From Candidatus Gastranaerophilales bacterium (lineage in GTDB: Bacteria; Cyanobacteriota; Vampirovibrionia; Gastranaerophilales; Gastranaerophilaceae): a DNA stretch of 64,000 bases. Numbering within the stretch: position 1 is the first letter of the stretch; every line of letters starts with the position of its first letter. Shown one piece after another: positions 3,075 through 64,000 of the stretch. Location of the stretch: contig CALUTI010000002.1 of NCBI GenBank assembly GCA_944323695.1, forward strand, positions 62,001-126,000, read 5' to 3'. The notes below the pieces were generated by a model. That model ran no database searches. It had not been told where the DNA came from and worked only from the letters and a program-made list of their open reading frames with translations. The position numbers and the translations under genes were made by a program.

Positions 3075-4187
3075 TTAATTCGCAAAATAATTTCTAATAA
3101 TCTTTTCAATCTTTTGAGCGGATTTTCCGACACCGTAAGGATTTTGTGCTTGTAATCTCGATTCGGCTTTTGATTTTGAGAGCACTTCTTCGCTGTAATC
3201 AATAATTTTATCGTAATCCGCGCCGACAAGAACGGATACCCCTGCGTCAATTCCTTCCTGACGCTCGGTTTCATAACGCATAACAAGAGTCGGGCATCCA
3301 AAAGTAGGTGCTTCCTCCTGAATTCCGCCTGAATCCGTCAGAATAAGTTTTGCATTTTTCATTAAATACACAAGATAAGGATAATCAAGCGGCTTTAATA
3401 ATTTAATCTGAGGGTATTTGCAAAGCCGTGAGTGAATTTTGTCATGTACATTAGGGTTTGGATGCACAGGAATTACAAAAGTGTGATCCGGATACTCTTT
3501 TGCAAGATATTCAATTGCATCAATAATTCTGTCAATTCTTGCCCCGTGATTTTCCCGTCTGTGGGCCGTAATTAAAACAAGTTTGTCGTCAATTTTAATA
3601 TTATTAGTCTTGAAAAATTCAGCAGCACTGCTTAAAACATCATCTGTTAAGCAAAAAAGTGCGTCAATAACAGTATTTCCTGTTACAAAAATTTTGTCTT
3701 GGGAAATATTTTCTTTTAAAAGCGCTTCCTTATTTTTTTCAGTAGGTGCAAAGTTCAGCTCCGCAACCCTTGTTGTCATCTGGCGCATAATTTCTTCCGG
3801 AAACGGTTCATAAATATCGTATGACCTTAAGCCGGCTTCCACATGAAATACCGGAATTTTTCTGTAATAACTTGCCAAAGCTCCGCACAAAACCGTCATT
3901 GTGTCACCTTGAACTATTGTTGCATCAAAAGTGTTTTCTTCAAAAACTTTATCGAGCGCTGTTAGAATTCTGCTTTGAACAGAAATAAGCGACTGATTTT
4001 CTCTCATGCAGTCAAGGTTAATATCAGCTTTTAAACCGAAATATTCAAGAGTCTGGTTAGAAAGCTCTTTTTGCTGCTCTGTGTTACAGATAACAACATT
4101 ATAATTGTGTTTTCTAAGCTCTATTATGACCGGTGCAAGTTTTATAACCTCCGGACGCGTTCCGAATACAACCAATATATTTTTCAT
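3075..4187 (-). CDS. wecB: UDP-N-acetylglucosamine 2-epimerase (non-hydrolysing)
   Basis: A 370-residue cytoplasmic enzyme converting UDP-GlcNAc to UDP-ManNAc for surface polysaccharide synthesis. The start has the family pattern VVFGTRPEVIKLAPVI (residues 5-20). HVEAGLRSYDIYEPFPEE near 116-133, ITAHRRENHG near 207-216, and SGGIQEEAPTFGCPTLVMR near 286-304 match conserved active-site segments, including the His and Glu residues of the fold. Length fits the family. It is a single gene, divergent from the glutaredoxin. No Shine-Dalgarno is obvious, but a TATAAT box lies 12 bases before the ATG, implying a very short leader. Confidence 0.95.
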   Translation of the reverse strand: MKNILVVFGTRPEVIKLAPVIIELRKHNYNVVICNTEQQKELSNQTLEYFGLKADINLDCMRENQSLISVQSRILTALDKVFEENTFDATIVQGDTMTVLCGALASYYRKIPVFHVEAGLRSYDIYEPFPEEIMRQMTTRVAELNFAPTEKNKEALLKENISQDKIFVTGNTVIDALFCLTDDVLSSAAEFFKTNNIKIDDKLVLITAHRRENHGARIDRIIDAIEYLAKEYPDHTFVIPVHPNPNVHDKIHSRLCKYPQIKLLKPLDYPYLVYLMKNAKLILTDSGGIQEEAPTFGCPTLVMRYETERQEGIDAGVSVLVGADYDKIIDYSEEVLSKSKAESRLQAQNPYGVGKSAQKIEKIIRNYFAN

Positions 4188-53048: not shown

Positions 53049-53345
53049 ATGAAAAAAATTTTTGTATTACTATTTAGCTTATTAGTTACAGTCCCTGTGC
53101 TTGCTCAATGTGACTGCACTGACAGTACTATAATTAACAGATTAAACAACAGTTCATCAACTGAACTGGATGATTTATTTGAAAAATTAATTGACAGTGC
53201 ATCATTTTCACCAAGCTATAAAACCGAATCCGCACTTGCAGACCTAATATATGAAATTAAAGATGAAGATGAATTCCAAGATGCGGTGAAGTACTATATA
53301 ACGAACTACTGCAGTGTAGAAGGAAAACAAATTATTTGCCAATAA
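53049..53345 (+). CDS. small secreted protein
   Basis: A 98-residue protein with a clear signal peptide (MKKIFVLLFSLLVTVPVLA, cleavage before QCDC). The mature part is acidic, with Cys pairs near both ends (CDC at the start, C...C at the end: YCSVEGKQIICQ) that may form disulfides. ATG at 53049 lies after AAAGGAG with good spacing. It is the last bacterial-looking gene before the repeats and phage. No family recognised. Confidence 0.65.
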   Translation: MKKIFVLLFSLLVTVPVLAQCDCTDSTIINRLNNSSSTELDDLFEKLIDSASFSPSYKTESALADLIYEIKDEDEFQDAVKYYITNYCSVEGKQIICQ

Positions 53346-53370
53346 TTATGGCAATTAATAGTCAAACCCA

Positions 53371-53484
53371 GCCCTCTGCCGCCTCGCGCTCGAACCCTTT
53401 TAAAGGCTTCGCCTTGATAGCTTCTCATCCTCATCATACGCATTAAAAAAGCTCTCGCTCTTGAGAGCTTTCAAAAATGGGGCG
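53371..53484. repeat. 114-bp direct repeat, copy 1
   Basis: Matches 53566-53679 over its full 114 bases with about three differences. It starts GCCCTCTGCCGCCTCGCG and ends AAAAATGGGGCG, and contains a hairpin (AAAGCTCTC / GAGAGCTTT). The copies are 195 bp apart, beside the left edge of the prophage. Confidence 0.85.
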
Positions 53485-53565
53485 CCTGAGGGATTGTCTT
53501 GCTCGGCGGCGTTAAACGGGTCTGCGTATTTTGCTTCTGTGTTTCACACTTTCGCAAAACACTCC

Positions 53566-53679
53566 GCCCTCTGCCGCCTCGCGCTCGAACCCTTTTAAAG
53601 GCTTCGCCTTGATGGCTTCTCATCCTCATCATGCGCATTAAAAAAGCTCTCACTCTTGAGAGCTTTCAAAAATGGGGCG
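53566..53679. repeat. 114-bp direct repeat, copy 2
   Basis: Second copy of the repeat at 53371-53484. The 583-base gap between the secreted-protein gene and the endolysin holds the two repeats, two hairpins and a short frame of about 37 codons ending at 53802 (…LLELFNKTLHPIF…), for which I see no support as a gene. Confidence 0.85.
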
Positions 53680-53813
53680 GATGATAGGACTTTGCTCGAA
53701 CTCTTTAATAAAACTTTACATCCTATTTTTATATCTTCAGCCGTATTATTACTATCAAAAGAGATTGAAAATTATAAAGAAATAATTAAAAATGTTGCTT
53801 AATTTTGCTACAA

Positions 53814-53839
53814 AAAGCCCGGTTGTTACACCGGGCTTT
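53814..53839. terminator. hairpin, possible terminator
   Basis: AAAGCCCGGT and ACCGGGCTTT pair around a 6-base loop. It lies near the phage-host junction. Confidence 0.6.
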
Positions 53840-53888
53840 GTGATACAAAAAAGAAAGGAGTTACAAAGAAGCATTAAAACTAAAGAAA

Positions 53889-53906
53889 AGCCGGAAATTT
53901 CCGGCT
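53889..53906 (-). terminator. terminator of the phage late operon
   Basis: The 18-base palindrome AGCCGGAAATTTCCGGCT is followed on the minus strand by TTTTC, just downstream of the endolysin stop. Confidence 0.65.
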
Positions 53907-53928
53907 AAATATCCGATTTATCTAATTT

Positions 53929-54387
53929 TTATAATTTCTCTACAAAATCAATCAAAGCAAAAACACGGTTTAACCAACCGTTTAAAAATTTCCTTTGAGT
54001 TTGATTTTTTGCAAATTCGTTATATTTACGGATTCTTGCTAAATAAAATTCGTTTAAGTCTATCCATTTGGCGGCTTTTAAAAATTCATCAACACGGCTA
54101 ACGCCCATATTTACCGCGGTATCAAAACACACTACGGCAAATTTTGAAGTCATTTTATCGCACCCGGCCGCCAGCCAATAGTTTTTATAATAAATTTCTT
54201 TTACTTCCGCGTCTGTGATGTTTTTTACATCTTTTGAGGGCTTGCCAATGGATTTTAACCAACTGTTGTATGTATTTTGTGTTATTCCTTTATTGGTAGC
54301 CCCGCCGCGGTCGTCCGGGTCGTTTACATATCCGCCCTCGCGCGCTAAAACAAATTTTAAAGCATTTTCAAATTCTTTTGAATACAT
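53929..54387 (-). CDS. phage endolysin (glycosyl hydrolase 108 family)
   Basis: A 152-residue muramidase-type endolysin. The start FVLAREGGYVNDPDDRGG, followed by ATNKGIT, is the GH108 active-site signature, with the catalytic Glu in REGG. CFDTAVNMGVSR and the C-terminal segment match the partner peptidoglycan-binding part. Without a signal peptide it would need a holin, and a holin-like gene lies directly upstream. It would release progeny by cutting peptidoglycan. Last gene of the leftward late operon. Confidence 0.92.
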   Translation of the reverse strand: MYSKEFENALKFVLAREGGYVNDPDDRGGATNKGITQNTYNSWLKSIGKPSKDVKNITDAEVKEIYYKNYWLAAGCDKMTSKFAVVCFDTAVNMGVSRVDEFLKAAKWIDLNEFYLARIRKYNEFAKNQTQRKFLNGWLNRVFALIDFVEKL

Positions 54388-54388
54388 C

Positions 54389-54613
54389 TTAACCCCCTCT
54401 TATTAATGCTATTAACAAATTTACGCACCCGCCAACAACAAAGCCGATTCCGGCAAAAAAGCCATTAACCCAACCTTGTTTTTTTTGCGCTTTTTCAAGC
54501 GTATCAACTCTATGACATAATCCGGGTTCACCGTTGCCCATTACAGCTTGTTTAATGCATGCTATATCTTGCGCCATTTCAACAAAATCAATTTCGGTCT
54601 TTATTTCGGTCAT
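54389..54613 (-). CDS. holin-like phage membrane protein
   Basis: A 74-residue protein: a helical, charged N-terminal half (about 1-45, RVDTLEKAQKKQ) and one hydrophobic helix (GFFAGIGFVVGGCVNLLIALI, here given as two short pieces GFFAGIGFVVGG and CVNLLIALI). This layout and its position just before the endolysin fit a small holin or haemolysin XhlA-type protein. It overlaps the upstream DUF1353 gene by 4 bases. Role inferred from layout. Confidence 0.7.
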   Translation of the reverse strand: MTEIKTEIDFVEMAQDIACIKQAVMGNGEPGLCHRVDTLEKAQKKQGWVNGFFAGIGFVVGGCVNLLIALIRGG

Positions 54614-55098
54614 TTCTTTATATCCTCTCTAAAATCTTTTGGTTTATCCCATCCGCAAAATTTTTGAAAGTTATCTACGCTATGAAACATTAGCCAACGA
54701 TTAAATGCCGGTACACCCGAAACATATAAAAGACGTTCAAAAACTTTATCGCAAAAATAGCGGTCATTATTTACATATTCATGATGCTCACATAAAACAT
54801 CATGTACCATTGACGGAATCAAAAATTTTGAATCGGTTTTACTTCCGATTAATCGCCAAAACAACCGGGGAATAGTCGCCCCATCCCAGCAGTAGCCCCG
54901 CGGAATGCAAAAATAATGTTTTACATTTTTTTTGTAGTCATGTAATTCAACGTTTAAATGTCCTTTGTTTTCAAAAGGGTATTTATTAATAGCTGTTTTT
55001 TGTGCTTTAGTCATTGAAGGTAAAGCATATCTAACAGCTACGCGCGGTTTTTCGCTAAAATATATTCCGATTTCTTTATCTTTATACCATTCAAGCAT
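54610..55098 (-). CDS. phage DUF1353 protein
   Basis: A 162-residue protein with the DUF1353 signature GYCWDGATIPRLFWRLIG (near 68-85) followed by SMVHDVLCEH (near 97-106), a family common next to lysis genes in tailed phages and without established function. The conserved Trp-Asp-Gly-Ala and His-Asp pairs suggest a metal-dependent or peptidase-like fold, but that is not proven. Co-transcribed with holin-like and endolysin genes. Confidence 0.85.
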   Translation of the reverse strand: MLEWYKDKEIGIYFSEKPRVAVRYALPSMTKAQKTAINKYPFENKGHLNVELHDYKKNVKHYFCIPRGYCWDGATIPRLFWRLIGSKTDSKFLIPSMVHDVLCEHHEYVNNDRYFCDKVFERLLYVSGVPAFNRWLMFHSVDNFQKFCGWDKPKDFREDIKK

Positions 55099-55107
55099 TA
55101 CGCCCCC

Positions 55108-55416
55108 TTATTCGACTTCATAAGTGCTTGTTAGCGGGTTTACTTTTACTTTACCGTTAATCTGAACATACACACCAAGCCAATTACGCTTTAATATAAT
55201 TTTTTGGTTTGATTTTTCGTTTAAAGGCTGCTTCATTACAATAACATTTATTTTGTTGTCTTCCATTTCTATGGTTTGTGTTGATTTATCGGCTTCGATA
55301 GTTTCTTTTTCAACATTATTAACCAATTCTTCAGCCGGTTCTTGTACAACTTCATCAGCAAATACACTTGAAGCACAAAAAAATAAGATTCCTAAAATAA
55401 TTGCTAATTTTTTCAT
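55108..55416 (-). CDS. phage-encoded exported protein
   Basis: A 102-residue protein with a signal peptide (MKKLAIILGILFFCASSVFA). The mature part is acidic at first (EEVV-like runs of Glu/Val), then beta-prone (KIILKRNWLGVYVQINGKV). The Cys near the end of the signal does not form a clear lipobox. Located among the lysis genes, it could be a spanin-like or superinfection-exclusion protein. Function unknown. Confidence 0.6.
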   Translation of the reverse strand: MKKLAIILGILFFCASSVFADEVVQEPAEELVNNVEKETIEADKSTQTIEMEDNKINVIVMKQPLNEKSNQKIILKRNWLGVYVQINGKVKVNPLTSTYEVE

Positions 55417-55419
55417 TTT

Positions 55420-55791
55420 TTACCCCTCTTTCAATAAATTACTAATCGTTCTTTTTATAAGTCTTATATATTTATCCCCATTAAATCCGCGTACCAAAAG
55501 CCCTTTAAAATAATTAAAATAGTTTTCGGCGGCGTCCGGGTTATAATATTCTTTTAGCGGTCTATTGCCGCGTTTTTGATTGCTTTGTTTGGTTGCTAAT
55601 ACCAAATTGCTTAATGTTGTTTTTCCGCCCTTTGAATGGGGTTTTAAGTGTTCCAAAGTTACAGTATCTTTTGTTAATCTGTGCCCGTAAAAATCGTAAT
55701 CTATTTTTATTAATCCTTTTTTATAAAGGGTTTTCAACTCATGAGAGTACCCAAATGCCGGATTATTTAAGCTAATAGTATTTACTTTCAT
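55420..55791 (-). CDS. HNH endonuclease-family protein
   Basis: A 123-residue protein with an HNH motif: VTLEHLKPHSKGGKTTLSNLVLA (given in parts: TLEHLKPHSKGG and SNLVLATKQSNQKRGNRPL) contains the His, the Asn and a third polar residue in the expected order. HNH enzymes are common in phages, often near packaging. The N-terminus (MKVNTISLNNPAFGYS) carries the NPAFG motif seen in proteins of this host lineage. Overlaps the next upstream gene by 20 bases. Confidence 0.85.
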   Translation of the reverse strand: MKVNTISLNNPAFGYSHELKTLYKKGLIKIDYDFYGHRLTKDTVTLEHLKPHSKGGKTTLSNLVLATKQSNQKRGNRPLKEYYNPDAAENYFNYFKGLLVRGFNGDKYIRLIKRTISNLLKEG

Positions 55792-55981
55792 TTTCAGGTT
55801 TTCCGAACTTTTTAACCAATCCTAAAACAACTGATTTCATACGGCATTTTGCGGGCGTTATAGATTCGCAATTGTCAAGAATATGACAATTTGAACATTT
55901 ACACCCGTTAAAATAACAATTTACCGCTAATGCAGTCCAACGCCGCAAACATTCTTGCGGAATCGGGGTTAAAATACCCAT
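55772..55981 (-). CDS. Cys-rich small phage protein
   Basis: A 69-residue protein with a cluster of Cys in FNGCKCSNCHILDNCES and a later CRMK, the pattern of a small zinc- or iron-sulfur-binding module. It overlaps the HNH gene start by 20 bases, so the two are probably coupled. The family is unknown to me; DNA binding is possible. Confidence 0.6.
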   Translation of the reverse strand: MGILTPIPQECLRRWTALAVNCYFNGCKCSNCHILDNCESITPAKCRMKSVVLGLVKKFGKPENESKYY

Positions 55982-56083
55982 AATAACACCTTATTTTTTT
56001 GCATTAAAAAATGCCCAGCCCGAACTTTAGCCCGCTTAAAGCGCGCCGCAAGCTAAATACCCACCAACCCAGCCATAAAATTT
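55982..56083. other. phage intergenic with GC-rich palindromes
   Basis: About 100 bases with short complementary stretches (GCCCAGCCCGAACTTT, AAAGCGCGCC). It might end the retroelement transcript. It does not contain a copy of the variable region. Confidence 0.3.
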
Positions 56084-56614
56084 TTATAACAATTCGTCTA
56101 GTGTTTCACGATACGCATTGTATAATTCTTCTTTTTGAAAATAAAGAAAATAAAATAACTGCGTCAATTCTGCAATATTCATACTTACTTTATTTGCTTT
56201 TAACCGCGTAGCGTCATATATATTAACAGTTTTTTGCGCAATATCCGGGAATAATGTAGAAACATCCCCGCCAATTGCCGTTATTAATAAAAGCGGTTTT
56301 AAAATTTTGTCCATTTCCCTATCGTAATCATCAATATAGCGCGGTAAATAGATATGCCCGTTTGTTGGATATGTTACCGGCGTATCTAGTGCAAGTTCAT
56401 ATAAAACCTCTGCGTCATTATCCCCAAGGGCTTTATATTCCGCCGGGGTTATGATTGCTTCATCATAAGTATATTTTGTAACAGTTTCGCCGCTTTCGTT
56501 TTCGGTTTCTGTTACCTCAATGTTTTTTCTGATGTAAATTGCTGTTTTTGATAAATTTTTATCAACCGCAAGCGGTTGTATTAAACTTTCAGATTTTTGC
56601 CATGTCAGATTCAT
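56084..56614 (-). CDS. phage tail-associated hypothetical protein
   Basis: A 176-residue protein. AIYIRKNIEVTETENESG, then TYDEAIITPAEYKAL, resembles small tail-fibre accessory proteins of gut siphophages, with a helical C-terminus (about 125-176). Its start lies inside the reverse transcriptase gene (26-base overlap). It is larger than and unlike the Avd accessory of retroelements (a ~120-residue four-helix bundle), so I do not call it Avd. Possibly a tail chaperone or fibre-assembly protein. Confidence 0.55.
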   Translation of the reverse strand: MNLTWQKSESLIQPLAVDKNLSKTAIYIRKNIEVTETENESGETVTKYTYDEAIITPAEYKALGDNDAEVLYELALDTPVTYPTNGHIYLPRYIDDYDREMDKILKPLLLITAIGGDVSTLFPDIAQKTVNIYDATRLKANKVSMNIAELTQLFYFLYFQKEELYNAYRETLDELL

Positions 56615-57725
56615 TTTTTAACCTCTTATTTATTCTTTTCTGTCTTAAACTTACAATCTTTTTACATTCCCCTATGTTTACATAAGGTTTTATAAACCGT
56701 TCAAATACCTTGTATGTATCTGTGTATTTAAACCAGCCTAAGTAGCATAATAATTGTGTGCATTCGTACCAATTTAGCTTAGTCTTTTTGCTTATCTTTA
56801 GGGCTTTTCTAACAGCCCTTAACATAATACCGCGTCTTAATAACGTACGGTCACGGTAGAATTTAAATCCCATAAAATCAATTGGCCGCCCTCGAGCTTT
56901 GCCGTTTTTATCAGTATATGCAAATTTGAATACCTGATAATTTGATTTTAAATGTAATTCGATATTTTCCAAATATTCGGATATTTCTTTTATTGCTTTG
57001 TGCAATTCCTTTTTATTTGGACTTAACAATACAAAATCATCAACATATCTTATATAACATTTGATTTTTAATTTTTGCTTTATAAAATAATCAAAGTCTT
57101 GCAAAAACCAGTTTGCAATCCATTGACTTAAATAGTAGCCAATCGGCAAGCCCATGTTAATATTTTCGCCTTTGTATGTAGCTATATTGGAATCTAAGAC
57201 CAAGAAAACCACATCTAAAAATTTTTCATCATGTATAATTTTCCTAAATTTTTCTTTTACACGCTCAATGCTTACCGTTTGAAAAAATTTAGATATATCC
57301 CCTTTAGCTGCATATTTAACCTTTTTAGGGTGTTCCCGTATGTATTTTGCTAAGTATCTTTTACCATACAAGCCGCCCCGGCCGGGCAATGAGCCGCAAG
57401 AAAACACATACATACTGCGCATAAATATAGGGGTAAGAACTTGTACAATCGCATGATGTAAAATCTGTTCGTAAACATAATCGGGTTTTATTATTAATCT
57501 TATTTTAGCGGTTATGCCGTCATTTATTTTTACTGCTTCATGTTTTCGGATTTTTAATTTTTTATTAATTAATAAATATTGTAAGCGTTTTATATATTCG
57601 TCCTTGTGTTCTAAGACCTTTTTAACTTCGCGTCTTTCTCTTTTACCTAATGACGATTTTTCTATAGCTTCGCTTAAATTTTCATAACTTATTAACTTTT
57701 CAAAGAGATGATTATAAGACTTCAT
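56589..57725 (-). CDS. diversity-generating retroelement reverse transcriptase
   Basis: A 378-residue reverse transcriptase. Catalytic YVDD is at 227-230; KGDISKFFQTV (141-151) carries the first catalytic Asp; and GLPIGYYLSQWIAN (192-205) has the I-G-x3-S-Q form that marks retroelement-type enzymes and differs from the QG-x3-SP of group II introns and retrons. No maturase or HNH domain follows. It lies 117 bases after the end of a tail protein with a variable C-terminus, the usual retroelement layout. Its ATG is preceded by AAGAAAGACC. It should copy an RNA template with adenine mutagenesis and write it into the target gene. Confidence 0.9.
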   Translation of the reverse strand: MKSYNHLFEKLISYENLSEAIEKSSLGKRERREVKKVLEHKDEYIKRLQYLLINKKLKIRKHEAVKINDGITAKIRLIIKPDYVYEQILHHAIVQVLTPIFMRSMYVFSCGSLPGRGGLYGKRYLAKYIREHPKKVKYAAKGDISKFFQTVSIERVKEKFRKIIHDEKFLDVVFLVLDSNIATYKGENINMGLPIGYYLSQWIANWFLQDFDYFIKQKLKIKCYIRYVDDFVLLSPNKKELHKAIKEISEYLENIELHLKSNYQVFKFAYTDKNGKARGRPIDFMGFKFYRDRTLLRRGIMLRAVRKALKISKKTKLNWYECTQLLCYLGWFKYTDTYKVFERFIKPYVNIGECKKIVSLRQKRINKRLKNESDMAKI

Positions 57726-57734
57726 GGTCTTTCT

Positions 57735-57768
57735 TAGTAACCTCGCCGGTTTTCAACTGTTGCTACTA
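57735..57768 (-). ncRNA. structured segment between target gene and reverse transcriptase
   Basis: On the minus strand TAGTAGC and GTTACTA pair (7 bp, one G-T) around a 20-base loop that contains a small inner GTT/AAC stem. It lies just before the reverse transcriptase start. In retroelements this stretch usually carries the template RNA end or a hairpin after the variable region. Candidate only. Confidence 0.35.
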
Positions 57769-57841
57769 GCCCGCGCCTCTTGTTCGGTCAATTTTTACCA
57801 AGCGGTAAGGAATATAAAGTACATTAGAAAGTTGATATATA

Positions 57842-59506
57842 CTAAGAATTAGCCGCGCCAATGTTCCAGTTCGCATTAGAAGCCGCATTGTTGGAATTGA
57901 AACAGGACACCCCGCAAATCGCCCCATTGTTGGAATTGCCGCCACGATACGGGTAAGCAGTAATGCCGTTATTAGCCCATAAACCGTCACATAAAAAAGT
58001 TGTTGAAGACCCTTGCGCCACAGTAGCAAAGCGGCCGTATTTGTTTTCCATGCTTTGCGATATATAACCTTCGGACAAATTCCCGGTAACGGCCGGTATA
58101 TCCTCAAGTTTTATATAGCCTTCACCCGTAGTGTTATAATCCGTAGCGGTTGAGCCGTCGACCGTGCTTTTTGTCATTTTTACATAATGAACGCCGTTTA
58201 TTACAATATGGCCGCGGTATCTTCTCCACTGTGAAGCATAAAAATTTTCAATATATAAAAATTTAACACCCACGGCATTTGAAGAACTGCCGTACATCAT
58301 ACCTTTAGTGTTCATAGTGCCGGTTTTTAGACACGCACCGACATTAGACCCGCCGTTACTTTTTCCTTGACCTAAAACCGCTTGACTGTTTGCATTTTTG
58401 AATAAGAGTTTAAACAATCTTATTAAATACTGGTTCATACTAAATAATTCAGTATCCCAGCCGTCGCCGTTTGCCCGTGCGTAGTCTATTTCATTTTGTG
58501 CGGTTTTACTGCTTATTACCGTTTGCCCTGATAATGAGCGCAAAACATTATTAACTAATGAGCCGTTATAAATTGGCGCGTAGCCAAATTCATTATATGT
58601 CCCGTCTGATTTTTTACACCAGTAACACTCAAAGCCGTCATCAAGTTTAACATTTGAAAAATATACATAAGTCCGGCGGCCTTTTTCGTCATTTTTTGTA
58701 ACGACTTTTGTAAATACCCGGCGTATCTGTACCATGGCATTGCCGGCAAAATTTGTATTTGCTATGTCGCTTGCTACTTCACTATTGTATATTTTACTAA
58801 AATCGTTAGGGTCTAAATAATATGCTACCTGTCCGTTTTGTCCGCCAGTGCCGTTATAAAGCATACATGGTTTAACGTTATTCCAAGATACAAGCGGGCT
58901 ATTTTCCCAAGACCCCCAATTAAACAAATCACTTGTAAAATTCATATAGCAAGGGTCATAATTTTTATTTTCTTCTAAATATTCGTAACGATTGCCCGGC
59001 ACTGATTCATTATCTAATTCACAATAGCCGTACAACCAAGCCCCGAACATATTAGCCGCGGACATATTATATACATTGTTTACGGTGTAAGGAAAAGCCC
59101 TATAATAATATTCTACGGTTTCGCCGTCTTCATTTTCGGCCGGTGTTACTGTGTCTTGAAATCCTGTTATAGAATATTGATTTCTTACTTTATTGTCGCA
59201 AACTACTTCACCGTCTAAATGGTCTTCCGGGTAACTGCCGGCTTTTCTTACAATTAAAGTACCGCCCCAAGTCGCCAATTCTACACCGTCTATAATTGAA
59301 TCGTCCGGGTCTTCCCAAGTCAAAGTATTTGTATTGCCGTTTTTAACAATTTCTTTGTTTTTAATTGGCATTGGCGGTATGCCGTTACCTGTTGCCGCAT
59401 TATATCTTAAATACATTAGGCAGTCATTGAGTACATCCGGGTCGCATTCCGCTACGCCTGCTTCTGTCGGGTTGTCTGTCCATTCAAAATTTTCATCATT
59501 TGACAT
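57842..59506 (-). CDS. phage receptor-binding protein, retroelement target
   Basis: A 554-residue tail-tip protein. The N-terminal ~130 residues include a fibronectin-like part (IKNKEIVKNGNTNTLTWEDP). The centre has the tail-adhesin pattern FGAWLYGYCELDNESVPGNR and NSQAVLGQGKSNGGSNVG. The last ~40 residues form the presumed variable region within a C-type-lectin-like end: YPYRGGNSNNGAICGV, then FNSNNAASNANWNIGA, with the many AAC/AAT codons expected at adenine-targeted sites. The gene lies just downstream of the TipJ-like gene and upstream of the reverse transcriptase. It should set host range. Confidence 0.85.
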   Translation of the reverse strand: MSNDENFEWTDNPTEAGVAECDPDVLNDCLMYLRYNAATGNGIPPMPIKNKEIVKNGNTNTLTWEDPDDSIIDGVELATWGGTLIVRKAGSYPEDHLDGEVVCDNKVRNQYSITGFQDTVTPAENEDGETVEYYYRAFPYTVNNVYNMSAANMFGAWLYGYCELDNESVPGNRYEYLEENKNYDPCYMNFTSDLFNWGSWENSPLVSWNNVKPCMLYNGTGGQNGQVAYYLDPNDFSKIYNSEVASDIANTNFAGNAMVQIRRVFTKVVTKNDEKGRRTYVYFSNVKLDDGFECYWCKKSDGTYNEFGYAPIYNGSLVNNVLRSLSGQTVISSKTAQNEIDYARANGDGWDTELFSMNQYLIRLFKLLFKNANSQAVLGQGKSNGGSNVGACLKTGTMNTKGMMYGSSSNAVGVKFLYIENFYASQWRRYRGHIVINGVHYVKMTKSTVDGSTATDYNTTGEGYIKLEDIPAVTGNLSEGYISQSMENKYGRFATVAQGSSTTFLCDGLWANNGITAYPYRGGNSNNGAICGVSCFNSNNAASNANWNIGAANS

Positions 59507-59522
59507 TTAAAATTATCCTTTC

Positions 59523-61985
59523 TTAATAGCCGGAAACGGATATATTAACATTCCCGGTTGTTTCTATTCCTTCATTTGTATATAGTTTCACCACGCAATA
59601 ATCCGGCTTTGATTCGATAACATCCGGGTATGCGTTTGTATTGTACGGTGTTACAAGCACATGGGGTTCTTGTTTTATAAACGGCACGGGCTGTTTGCTT
59701 TCGGGGTCTGTTGCATAAACTATCTTTAACCCGGTTTCAGCGTCTTCAATCGCCCTGTTTGTGTAAATTTCGTTCCTGTCGGGTACATCAACATTCATTA
59801 CTAAATCATTCAGCCACATCATAGCCCCATTCGGGTTATTGAATGTTACGCGGACTTGATAGTAGCGGAATTTGTAAGACCCGGTAGACGCCAAAAGCCA
59901 ATTTGACCATGTTGTATTATCTTCACTGTACCGCCATTCTAAAGTTATAGATTGGCTTGCGTCACTTGAATATAAATTATGTGAAAAAGATATAATATTA
60001 GTAAGGCTTGCGCCAATGTCAAATACTTGTGAAGTATAAGACCCGGTAGTTACTGTTGTTGTACCCCATTTGCCGTTAGAATCCGCATAATATCTTGCAC
60101 CGGCTTTTTTCCAAAAATCGCTTAGAGTTTGCCATTTTATAGCGGATTTTAGCTTTAATTTGCCTTTATAAAACTTTGTGTCATTAAAAACCCCTTGCGG
60201 ATTTTCAAATATATGGTTTGATACAACTTCGTTTAAATCCGGCACATATTGAACATTTAAAATATCACTCGTTGCCGATTGTGAATAATTGTATTTGTTT
60301 TTAGCTTTAATCCAATATTTATATATGCCCTTTGAGGTTAAATTTAATGTATAGTTTGTACCGCTTATATTTGAAGCCACAACGCTGGAATTTTCCCAAG
60401 TTTCGCCGCGGCGTATTTCGTAAACAATATCAACACCTTGTACGGGTGTCCATGCAAATTCCGCTAATTTTTGGTTTTGTACAACATTAAAAGATTGAAC
60501 ATTATCCGGGTAGCCGTAAGAATCTTTTAAATTTGATACAAGCACGCGCGGTTCTTTGCTTCCTAATTCGTCGCTATATAATCTTTCGTCATAGGTACGC
60601 CAATTTACGGTATAAGTGCCGGCGCCGTCATCTGATACGCTTGTTACCTTTGCTAAATAGCCGGTTAAACCCATTAGTAGACTATCAAACTTGATAACGT
60701 CGCCTACCTCTAAATCAAATGCCCTGTAATCGGTTTTAAAACTCCCATAATAAGGACATAAGCGCTTAGAGTTTACATAATACCAAGCAAGCCGGCTTGC
60801 TTGTTGAAAATTGGTTATACTATAACAATTTATACTATGCTCAATCGGCACGCCGTCGCGATATTCTGGAATCTCTGCAAACGCTTCAACCTTTTGCCAT
60901 TCGTGGTCTGGTGAAATATAAACGAGTTTTAAAATGTCGTAGTGTTCTTCGGAAGGTACGGCCGAAAAAGTTTCAGACCCTTTTACAATATCTTCAGCCG
61001 TAAAAACTTTGCTTACTTCTTCAGCCTTGTCTATTTTAAATTGCAATTTACCATTTTTAGTAAACAGACCGCCCCGGCAACATCTGTAGATTTCATCTAT
61101 CAAGTCGCGGGCGCTTGTTTGGCTGTCAAAAATCATATTAAAAGTAAATCGCGGTGATTTTTTTATACTTCCGTCATTGGCTGTATATTCCAATTCTTCA
61201 TCACAAAATGCGGCCGCTTCTATAAAACTTTCAATGTCAAACAATTCCATTACGGCATTGTTATCTATTGTACCGTCATTTTTTAAGCATAACCCCAAAC
61301 CGTTATATGAGGTTAAAAAATCAAACATTACCCATGCCGGATTTTCGGAATACATAATAGAATAGCTTGTAGGGTTAGGGGAAGAATAAACGCGGATTTT
61401 ACGCCCTTTTACAATGCTTGTAAGGTTATAATTTACATCAATATCATTACTTCTTGGTACAGATACCGCCAAATAAGCAAGGTTGCGCAATGACCCGACA
61501 ATCTCGGCGCGTTCTTCATGTGTTGACCCGTCTATAATTGGGTCTACTGTCTGTGTTGCAGTTCCATAATATTTATTGACGCTTGCACCGCTGATAGTAC
61601 CGGCTTCAATATCATTAAATCTTATGTCCGAAAATTCGGTTATTTCGCCTTCCGCAAAAGCTACAAGACGTTTAACCGTTTTTGTACCGTCGTCGTGCTG
61701 CCAAATTCTATTACCTGCAAGTTTACAAGTTCCATATAATAACGGTATCGGTAAATCTTGGTTTGTTTGGGTTTGTATTACTCCGTTTGCATAAGCAGGG
61801 GAAGACGCCCCGTAATCGCCTACACTCTTTTTAGTAAATGCCATGGATAAAGCCATGCCGCCAAAAATAGTAAGCGCTTGCAAAACTCCGGCCGTGACTG
61901 TTATAAAAGTTGCAGTAGCTACCGACGCTAAAGTCATACCCAGCCCGGTTGCTATTGCTGTTGCTATCGCTGTAAATATTGCCAT
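59523..61985 (-). CDS. phage tail tip protein (TipJ / host-specificity J-like)
   Basis: An 820-residue protein. Residues 1-50 are strongly hydrophobic (ATAIATGLGMTLASVATATF, then LQALTIFGGMALSMAF), as in J-type tail proteins. The next ~400 residues carry the central tail-hub domain (LPIPLLYGTCKLAGNRIWQ; FNMIFDSQTSARDLIDEI). Fibronectin-type segments follow (about 500-600; FAWTPVQGVDIVYEIRRG). It forms the baseplate hub end that contacts the receptor. Order gpL-like, NlpC-like, TipJ-like matches siphophage and gene-transfer-agent tail cassettes. Confidence 0.88.
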   Translation of the reverse strand: MAIFTAIATAIATGLGMTLASVATATFITVTAGVLQALTIFGGMALSMAFTKKSVGDYGASSPAYANGVIQTQTNQDLPIPLLYGTCKLAGNRIWQHDDGTKTVKRLVAFAEGEITEFSDIRFNDIEAGTISGASVNKYYGTATQTVDPIIDGSTHEERAEIVGSLRNLAYLAVSVPRSNDIDVNYNLTSIVKGRKIRVYSSPNPTSYSIMYSENPAWVMFDFLTSYNGLGLCLKNDGTIDNNAVMELFDIESFIEAAAFCDEELEYTANDGSIKKSPRFTFNMIFDSQTSARDLIDEIYRCCRGGLFTKNGKLQFKIDKAEEVSKVFTAEDIVKGSETFSAVPSEEHYDILKLVYISPDHEWQKVEAFAEIPEYRDGVPIEHSINCYSITNFQQASRLAWYYVNSKRLCPYYGSFKTDYRAFDLEVGDVIKFDSLLMGLTGYLAKVTSVSDDGAGTYTVNWRTYDERLYSDELGSKEPRVLVSNLKDSYGYPDNVQSFNVVQNQKLAEFAWTPVQGVDIVYEIRRGETWENSSVVASNISGTNYTLNLTSKGIYKYWIKAKNKYNYSQSATSDILNVQYVPDLNEVVSNHIFENPQGVFNDTKFYKGKLKLKSAIKWQTLSDFWKKAGARYYADSNGKWGTTTVTTGSYTSQVFDIGASLTNIISFSHNLYSSDASQSITLEWRYSEDNTTWSNWLLASTGSYKFRYYQVRVTFNNPNGAMMWLNDLVMNVDVPDRNEIYTNRAIEDAETGLKIVYATDPESKQPVPFIKQEPHVLVTPYNTNAYPDVIESKPDYCVVKLYTNEGIETTGNVNISVSGY

Positions 61986-61988
61986 TTA

Positions 61989-62360
61989 TTATAAAACCCT
62001 GTAGTATTTAATTTCATTTTTAAATAAGCTAAGCCGGCTTATTTGTAGTGTATGCCCCTTGAATACATGTATAATTTTCCCGTATTCGTAATATATAGCT
62101 ACATGCAATTCATTGCGGAATCTTGTAGCTATAATGTCGCCTTTTTTTAATTCGTCGCGGGTTATTTCCCTGCAATGCTGTTGTAATTTTGCAATTCCAT
62201 AAAAATAATTGCGGTTGTCATCTTTTGACCTTAATTTATATCTTGGTTTATCCGGGTATAATTTTTGCACCGGGTAAAAGCAACCCTGATATGTACCGTC
62301 AGGGTTAAACATTTCGTAAGGTCTTCCGACTTCTAACAACAATTCTTTAAAATTTTCCAT
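61989..62360 (-). CDS. NlpC/P60-like phage tail protein
   Basis: A 123-residue domain. LLLEVGRPYEMFNPDGTYQGCFYPV places a Cys near residue 27, and KGDIIATRFRNELHVAIYYEYG places a His near 87 with a following hydrophobic strand, the catalytic pair of the NlpC/P60 fold. In lambda-like tails this is the K-type peptidoglycan hydrolase or tail assembly protein. It lies between the gpL-like and TipJ-like genes, as expected. Confidence 0.78.
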   Translation of the reverse strand: MENFKELLLEVGRPYEMFNPDGTYQGCFYPVQKLYPDKPRYKLRSKDDNRNYFYGIAKLQQHCREITRDELKKGDIIATRFRNELHVAIYYEYGKIIHVFKGHTLQISRLSLFKNEIKYYRVL

Positions 62361-62395
62361 AAATACCCCCTTATGTTTTTACATGCCGGCCGGTA

Positions 62396-63733
62396 TTAAA
62401 CCTTTACTACCAATTCTTCATACATTGTCGGGAATCCTCTAAAATTAGCTTCATTCCCTAATTCTTTACATCTGTCAAAAGTTCTGTCGCATGTTGTTTC
62501 TTCCCCTGTGTAACCGCACCGGCAATCTTTAAACCTGCGCACCTGACAGCTTGCGCGGTATTTCATAACCGGGCATTGCTTTTCATAGCCGCCCAGCGGG
62601 GTTTCTATATCCATGCTTGCATTTTCATAATCAAGCGTTAGATTATTGCATTTTCCGGCATATAGAATTTGCGCGGAATTTGCAATTAATGTGTTTGTAT
62701 TAACGTCTAAAAATACAAGCGTTAATATGGCCGGGGAATTGGTTATAACATCCCCGCGGCTTCCGACAATAGCGGAAATGCTTAAAGCAACGTTTGATAA
62801 CGAAATATTTAACCTTGATACACTTGAGTTATCATCTTTAGTAATTTCGCCATGTGTCAATGGCGCGCCTAAATATTCGTTGCCGTTATATACCAAGTAT
62901 GATAATGTTTCATTATCAAGTATTCTTACACCCCCGCCGGGTATGTCGATTTCTAAAAGTTTACGCGGTATTATTTCATCTTTTTCAACCTCTAACAAAG
63001 GATTAGCGGTTGGAAATACCTCTATTAATTGTACTTGTGTTGTTGCAAATCCAAGCCGGTCTACATCTAATTGTAAATTATCAGAATCAAATCTTACATG
63101 GTATGTTTTACCGTCGCCGCCCCTGCTCGTTTCCCATGTCCAATCAAAAGAACGGAAGCGGCCGCGCTTTGCTATAAAAAATTCTTCTAACTTCTTGCGC
63201 GTTTGGGGGTCTTTATCAAATTTAAGTGTCCAACTCTTTTTAGGTTTATCCCACCATACTTTCATATTATTGGCGGCCGTAAAAACACTGTCCATGATTC
63301 TATAAAAACCTATTGAGTTTTCACATTCTGCGTCATGATAAAAATTAAAAGCCCCTACGCTTTGTACCGGGGAATTATCTATACAAGCAAAAGTAATATC
63401 AAAATCGGTGTAACCTAAATTTTTTATATTTTGCTTTAACTTGTCTTCTTCAAAAAAACATAAATATGTTTTACCGTTTCCGCCGGTTTCGGCTTCCCAT
63501 GTCCAATTAAATTTACCGCCATTAAGCATTACATCTATAAAAAATTCTTCTATCGCTTTACGGTCAGTAAAATTTTTGTCAAACTTTAATGTAAAAGTCC
63601 TTTTTGGATAAGTCCATTTTGGGTATCTCTGTTCTTTCCCTTTGTGTTTTTCGTTTATTTGTGTATCAAATTCAATTGTACTTGTATATGCTTCTTTATA
63701 CTTAAAATCAAAGGTTAATACAGTATCTGTCAT
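62396..63733 (-). CDS. phage minor tail protein, fusion with duplicated domain
   Basis: A 445-residue protein. Two related ~85-residue units (about 35-120 and 150-235) each have KFDK...R..(I/L)EEFFI, then a FxWTWE motif, then GGxGKTY, and look like a duplicated gpM/DUF2460-type minor tail domain. The second half (about 250-445) is like gpL/BR0599-type minor tail proteins, with Cys in CPVMKYRASCQVRRFKDCRC and CDRTFDRCKELGN, likely a [4Fe-4S] site as in lambda gpL. This single chain replaces separate M and L proteins. First gene of the leftward tail cassette visible here. Confidence 0.82.
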   Translation of the reverse strand: MTDTVLTFDFKYKEAYTSTIEFDTQINEKHKGKEQRYPKWTYPKRTFTLKFDKNFTDRKAIEEFFIDVMLNGGKFNWTWEAETGGNGKTYLCFFEEDKLKQNIKNLGYTDFDITFACIDNSPVQSVGAFNFYHDAECENSIGFYRIMDSVFTAANNMKVWWDKPKKSWTLKFDKDPQTRKKLEEFFIAKRGRFRSFDWTWETSRGGDGKTYHVRFDSDNLQLDVDRLGFATTQVQLIEVFPTANPLLEVEKDEIIPRKLLEIDIPGGGVRILDNETLSYLVYNGNEYLGAPLTHGEITKDDNSSVSRLNISLSNVALSISAIVGSRGDVITNSPAILTLVFLDVNTNTLIANSAQILYAGKCNNLTLDYENASMDIETPLGGYEKQCPVMKYRASCQVRRFKDCRCGYTGEETTCDRTFDRCKELGNEANFRGFPTMYEELVVKV

Positions 63734-63762
63734 TGTTTAAAAGCCCCGTAAAATTAATTTAC

Positions 63763-63811
63763 TGAATTTGTAACAAAATCTAAATATATCTTTTGAATTT
63801 GTTGCAAAATC
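63763..63811. promoter_or_regulatory. doubled operator in the divergent phage promoter region
   Basis: TGAATTTGTAACAAAATC (63763) and TGAATTTGTTGCAAAATC (63794) are 18-base direct copies with two differences, 31 bp apart (about three helical turns). Each core is nearly palindromic (TTTGTNACAAA). The second copy overlaps the -35 box at 63802. Confidence 0.65.
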
Positions 63812-63830
63812 ATAAAACATAATTTATAAT
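63802..63830 (+). promoter_or_regulatory. promoter of the rightward phage gene
   Basis: TTGCAA (63802-63807), 17-base spacer, TATAAT (63825-63830), followed by AGGAAAGG and the ATG at 63862. Confidence 0.65.
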
Positions 63831-63861
63831 ATTAATAGTTGAATATAGGAAAGGCTGTAAT

Positions 63862-64000
63862 ATGATTTATAAAGTAGAATTGGCGGCAAGTGATGATTTT
63901 GAAATTATACATGCCGATTCTGATGAAGAAATGTTTTTAGAAGCAGACCAAATAAACGGCGGCTATCTAAATATTTTTGAAGTTAATGAAGATTATGAAC
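63862..64000 (+). CDS. phage gene start, partial
   Basis: The first 46 codons of a gene cut by the window end. It opens MIYKVELAASDDFEIIHAD and is acidic. Start ATG has a good AGGAAAGG ahead. It reads opposite to the tail genes behind the doubled operator, suggesting a regulated or early function. No family can be named. Confidence 0.6.
   Translation, partial: MIYKVELAASDDFEIIHADSDEEMFLEADQINGGYLNIFEVNEDYE

Follow-up and report, generated by a model that had tools for sequence, protein, structure and literature searches.

A probable diversity-generating retroelement cassette in a collapsed one-repeat state in a Gastranaerophilales prophage

A target protein with a C-type-lectin fold is usual in diversity-generating retroelements (DGRs) though not universal, and Avd, which is present in the element of Bordetella phage BPP-1, is not found in all DGRs. 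The BPP-1 DGR (NC_005357) has a reverse transcriptase (RT) downstream of a template repeat (TR), a structured RNA of the Rfam family RF03022 (Phage_DGR) between the two, a lectin-fold tail target, Mtd, and a pair of template and variable repeats (TR/VR) with the Avd gene located between VR and TR. In this phage a hairpin following the VR is needed for efficient homing (PMC3240598), and TR-VR recombination is reported to be rare in the reconstituted BPP-1 system (PMC12875486). A large DGR survey searched for RT genes that have an imperfect repeat at most 1 kb away (PMC8144416), and in one virome DGRs were called in only 82 of the 202 phage clusters carrying an RT (PMC7981956). A search of a literature library returned no report of DGRs in Gastranaerophilales. 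The window analyzed here, a single stretch of DNA of 64,000 nt, very probably contains the DGR cassette of an integrated Gastranaerophilales tailed phage, recorded in a collapsed one-repeat state.

Layout of the cassette and identity of its parts

The minus-strand transcription order is gpJ-like gene, 554-amino acid tail gene and 378-amino acid RT gene, and the features of the locus are as follows.

56589-57725, minus strand: RT gene assigned to the DGR type, 378 amino acids (RVT_1 5.8e-18; phrog_1423 1.6e-93; A-specific TR/VR pairs in relatives; small tree)
57730-57807, minus strand: RT-18 structured RNA (RF03021), located downstream of the repeat and upstream of the RT (55.7 bits against a gathering score of 41.3)
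57843-57953, minus strand: one 111-nt template-like repeat (TR), with which the tail gene ends (alignment to the TR and VR of the relative L027)
57842-59506, minus strand: tail protein gene, 554 amino acids, the DGR target in relatives (phrog_5302 1.5e-73; L027 homologue 78% identical)
57845-58888, minus strand: predicted C-type-lectin-fold region, residues 207-554 (AlphaFold model; TaqVP Z 25.9, Mtd Z about 10.7)
59039-59383, minus strand: predicted FN3-like domain, residues 42-156 (Z about 9-10 to many FN3 domains)
57953-57954, no strand: junction of the VR-like 5' flank and the template copy (alignment to L027)
59523-61985, minus strand: gpJ/TipJ-like central tail fibre protein gene, 820 amino acids (PF13550 2.3e-8; phrog_31 'central tail fiber J' 1.8e-54)
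53473-53489, no strand: putative prophage attachment core, 17 nt (direct repeat, second copy at contig position 154920 beside tRNA-His)

The matches of the upstream gene (59523-61985) to PF13550 and phrog_31 bear out an earlier sequence-only reading of this DNA, in which the cassette was placed after a TipJ-like gene. The tail gene (57842-59506, minus strand) has the C terminus RGGNSNNGAICGVSCFNSNNAASNANWNIGAANS, with the last ~37-40 residues rich in Asn and patterned with Gly, in agreement with what that reading had described for the last ~40. A prophage location had also been proposed and is supported by a direct repeat of 17 nt found at each edge, with tRNA-His at one of the copies; on this evidence the cassette sits in a prophage with its left edge near 53473, and the end of the window falls inside the prophage. 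A gene beside the 17-nt repeat is predicted from its sequence to encode a large serine recombinase. A 124-bp tandem duplication (94%, 53366-53489 and 53561-53684) lies at the left edge, its first copy including the putative attachment core. The Vampirovibrionia-type gut host suggested earlier is upheld by an order-wide search, which returns the same loci in GenBank MAGs named Candidatus Gastranaerophilales or Melainabacteria. On contig C7 of the same genome (L055:2708-4396, minus strand) there is a second RT, Drt2-like (340.7 bits, curated cut-off 390), adjoining type I restriction-like and sensor genes.

Searched by sequence, the tail protein has no match among solved structures. Its AlphaFold model (26 homologues) has a mean pLDDT of 87.9, and structure comparison of the model relates residues 207-554 to the DGR variable protein TaqVP (Z 25.9), residues 229-554 to Mtd (Z about 10.7) and residues 42-156 to FN3 domains (Z about 9-10). 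The predicted model supports a C-type-lectin fold as in DGR variable proteins, and the lectin-like character proposed earlier for the C-terminal region is upheld by the TaqVP and Mtd comparisons.

The RT matches Pfam RVT_1 (5.8e-18) and contains the motif GLPIGYYLSQ (IGxxxSQ), in line with the retroelement type and I-G-x3-S-Q motif originally noted. A profile of 20 RT relatives compared with solved structures gives chain 8ub7, which we take to be the BPP-1 enzyme, as the best match with 122 bits, compared with 83 for group II and 41 for retron enzymes. A small tree places the RT together with L025 and L034 (98/99), and each of these two has a TR/VR pair. The A-specific repeats of clade members, the tree, the 8ub7 match and the IGxxxSQ motif together assign the RT, by sequence relationships, to the DGR lineage. 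An alternative identity as an RT of group II introns, retrons or defence systems, with a chance position beside the tail gene, is extremely improbable for the enzyme. Generic cross-matches of this kind occur with NCBIfam TIGR04416 (group II, 80.8 bits, curated cut-off 300), retron St85 (57.4 bits, cut-off 235) and Drt3a (67.2 bits, cut-off 200) and with PADLOC Cas1_IIIb (89.4 bits), but all the NCBIfam scores fall far under their curated cut-offs, 8ub7 is ahead of group II by about 40 bits, and the A-specific TR/VR pairs of the nearest relatives contradict such an origin. The names group II intron, retron and DRT were rejected for the RT on these scores, and the placement among group II introns or retrons that the sequence-only reading had named as evidence against itself is not found, with tree, cut-offs and 8ub7 in agreement.

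The Rfam family RT-18 (RF03021) is matched over its full length on the minus strand at 57807-57730, with 55.7 bits compared with a gathering score of 41.3. Of 20 additional loci, 14 carry it immediately upstream of the RT; loci with RT-18 include L024, L027, L033, L040, L044, L061, L142 and L217. It is also found in Lactobacillus phage LBR48, with Butyrivibrio phage Arawn under the gathering score. Since it lies between TR and RT, in the slot held by RF03022 (Phage_DGR) in BPP-1, we infer a role for RT-18 as spacer RNA in the DGRs of the window clade; the entry is named only 'RT-18 RNA' in Rfam's table, and the DGR role is proposed here. A 2017 paper on structured RNAs reportedly describes the RT-N RNAs. 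Combined with the RT, RT-18 could serve as a DGR marker that is independent of the repeats.

The repeat in relatives and in the window

The clade set, which includes the window, consists of 103 non-redundant loci whose sequence extends 700 nt or more upstream of the RT; all were scanned in the same A-tolerant manner as the window. An A-biased TR/VR pair is present in 93/103 loci. Template A differs at 1440 of 2367 positions (61%) in these pairs, compared with 22/2463 for C (0.9%), 5/2728 for G (0.2%) and 26/2777 for T (0.9%), and the lowest share of A changed in any of the 93 VRs is 22%. From these A-specific differences we infer diversification in the relatives. A GC-rich hairpin occurs within 60 nt of the VR in 52/93 loci and of the TR in 0/93 (shuffles 1%). 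Apart from the window, nine loci were not called. L142 has lost its VR, the TRs of L157, L171 and L096 have few A left, and the pair of L039 is diverged; L037 has tandem TRs, L189 a pair that falls slightly short of the threshold, L088 an N gap and L098 an incomplete RT.

Several loci depart from the usual arrangement. Tandem arrays of 2-3 template-like repeats lie between the target gene and the RT in L037 (upstream of the RT at 3859), L063, L067 and L072, and extra A-changed repeat copies are present outside the target gene in L065, L066 and L071. The RT-proximal repeat of L157, L096 and L171, the expected template, is without most of its A, as if overwritten. The related RT of L120 (genome G360) contains 12 TGA codons in frame and is accompanied by an A-biased repeat pair, and the locus looks like a DGR in a phage reading TGA as an amino acid. 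A 213-nt repeat pair with mostly A differences on one strand flanks another RT in L017, where the presumed template follows the RT and has the opposite orientation to it.

A search of IMG/VR for a near-identical phage by RT, target and TR DNA returned only L027/L059 and the truncated L058, 15 other genomes of the genus gave no DNA match, and no genome carrying the same prophage was found; the ancestral layout of the window cassette is therefore taken from L027 (IMGVR_UViG_3300037400_001239), the closest relative, with an RT 88% and a target 78% identical. The order in L027 is VR, 7-bp hairpin, spacer, TR (starting 192 nt after the VR), RT-18 and RT. RT-18 occupies the same slot in the window, whereas the separate VR, the hairpin and the spacer of L027, about 192 nt, are all missing from it.

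No TR/VR pair is found by the A-tolerant scan of both strands of 53300-64000, and this single-repeat state had been missed by the sequence-only reading. A second repeat in either orientation, A- or T-tolerant, was sought over the same interval, and only the unrelated 124-bp tandem duplication, which lies outside the cassette, and a 52-nt gene-internal similarity (63 kb) were returned; the 1.73-Mb assembly (97.8% complete) has no second copy when A sites are left unconstrained and as many as 3 mismatches are allowed. The window copy (57843-57953) is identical to the L027 TR at 106/111 positions and to the L027 VR at 90/111, and keeps 24/24 template A compared with 16/24 changed in the L027 VR. 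It ends 117 nt before the RT, the L027 TR ending 118 nt before it. The 5' flank of the copy is VR-like, with the tail gene running directly into the template, and the fused tail frame is open, ending at the TR's stop. No hairpin or cruciform is found 3' of the window repeat. A leftover spacer was not found elsewhere in the genome in a weak search that used the L027 spacer as query without a positive control.

Judged by these alignments, the window repeat is a template and not a variable repeat. The chance of 0/24 A changed in a lightly mutated VR is 0.003 at the lowest rate seen among VRs; such an outcome in a real VR would not have zero probability, yet the loss of the spacer would still need explaining. 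Since 24/24 template A are kept in the fused repeat, the Asn-rich tail end is unmutated template rather than a diversified tip. The earlier proposal that the cassette diversifies the receptor-binding tip is not sustained, the only repeat being of template type with 0/24 A changed, and the Asn-rich end loses its value as a sign of diversification, being undiversified template fused to the tail gene.

Proposed mechanism and origin of the one-repeat state

In the relatives a transcript would carry the TR and then the RT-18 RNA, an arrangement suggested by the observed order and A-specific repeats. The RT would copy the TR with errors at A, as the repeat pattern and BPP-1 indicate, and by analogy with BPP-1 the cDNA would replace the VR, which lies next to the DNA hairpin where the lectin-fold tail gene ends, so changing the tail tip. 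The window keeps the donor parts (TR, RT-18 and RT) intact but lacks VR, hairpin and spacer, the recipient parts; the TR itself forms the end of the tail gene, and the tail protein ends in undiversified sequence. With the recipient half gone, ordinary TR-to-VR diversification is impossible for the cassette as assembled.

The explanation placed first, and given an even chance, is an assembly artefact in which the VR population was diverse and the assembler went from the VR flank into the TR, dropping the VR, hairpin and spacer. In a simulation of a diversified L027 cassette with 50 VR variants, greedy k-mer walks at k=21 reproduce the window arrangement exactly in 17/60 to 58/60 runs, the range depending on the mutation rate, but at k=55 the simulation mostly breaks instead of merging, and the walk is a simple greedy one and not a real assembler. 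A merge accounts for the presence of template A throughout, as A is the commonest base at each site under moderate mutation rates. At 100-700 nt upstream of the RT, contig ends are 2-3 times as dense as at greater distances (12 compared with 6, 4 and 6 per 600 nt), and in L088, an isolate genome, an N gap and shortened spacing fall between the VR and TR or within them, an indication that assemblers have difficulty here; the fused product, however, is present in none of the other 102 loci. Placed second, with a probability somewhat short of even, is a true deletion in which VR-TR recombination or slippage removed about 192 bp, leaving the TR in frame and diversification off. This cause is just as simple as a merge. 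The VR and TR, as direct repeats of ~110 bp that resemble each other and are separated by about 190 nt, form an arrangement prone to deletion; the fused frame stays open to the TR's stop, and other losses are seen elsewhere (the VR missing in L142, few-A TRs in L157, L171 and L096). The 24/24 template A would nevertheless require a crossover in the first few repeat bases if the lost VR resembled that of L027, and the reported rarity of TR-VR recombination in the reconstituted BPP-1 system (PMC12875486) also argues against a deletion. Mutagenic cDNA was considered separately as the cause of a merge and rejected, with 0/24 A changed.

Two arrangements in which the single repeat would be functional are both very improbable. 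The template might serve a remote VR elsewhere in the genome, the tail gene end acting as donor only, and remote targets are known in other DGRs such as that of Treponema denticola (PMC4891356), but the search of the 97.8% complete assembly described above gives no such copy. Alternatively the tail gene end might be template and target at once in a working one-repeat DGR, each round overwriting the template until the system burns out. The TR, RT-18 and RT are intact and co-oriented with the tail gene as this would require; self-editing, however, should erode template A, of which 24/24 are kept, the post-VR hairpin needed for efficient BPP-1 homing (PMC3240598) is absent, and the layout occurs in no relative.

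Should the deletion be real, it would represent a simple route to loss of tail diversification, in which the two repeats fuse and the tail stays fixed in the template sequence. If the assembly merge is correct, the locus is a warning that DGRs can be hidden in draft genomes. The large survey (PMC8144416) would miss collapsed cassettes, as its search needed an imperfect repeat near the RT.

Comparison with complete retroelements

The nearest RTs in named phages are those of Butyrivibrio phages Arawn and Idris and Lactobacillus phage LBR48, which are 40-43% identical and whose hosts differ from that of the window prophage. The variable protein TaqVP of Thermus aquaticus (PDB code 5vf4) has the same predicted fold over residues 207-554 of the window protein with 16% sequence identity, the window protein having in addition the FN3-like domain. 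The RT of BPP-1 is about 25% identical, and the structured RNA between TR and RT belongs to Phage_DGR in BPP-1 and to RT-18 in the window. BPP-1 has the Avd gene and the TR/VR pair; a search of the window's genome for Avd (PF05635), in which no positive control responded, gave no match, and the L027 spacer is too short for Avd. The features absent from the window are the separate VR, with one copy in 53300-64000 and in the genome, and the hairpin 3' of the repeat, and since a separate VR is a defining feature the element as assembled is not a complete DGR. With its DGR-lineage RT, predicted C-type-lectin-fold target and structured RNA between TR and RT, it is a collapsed DGR cassette, a system of known kind.
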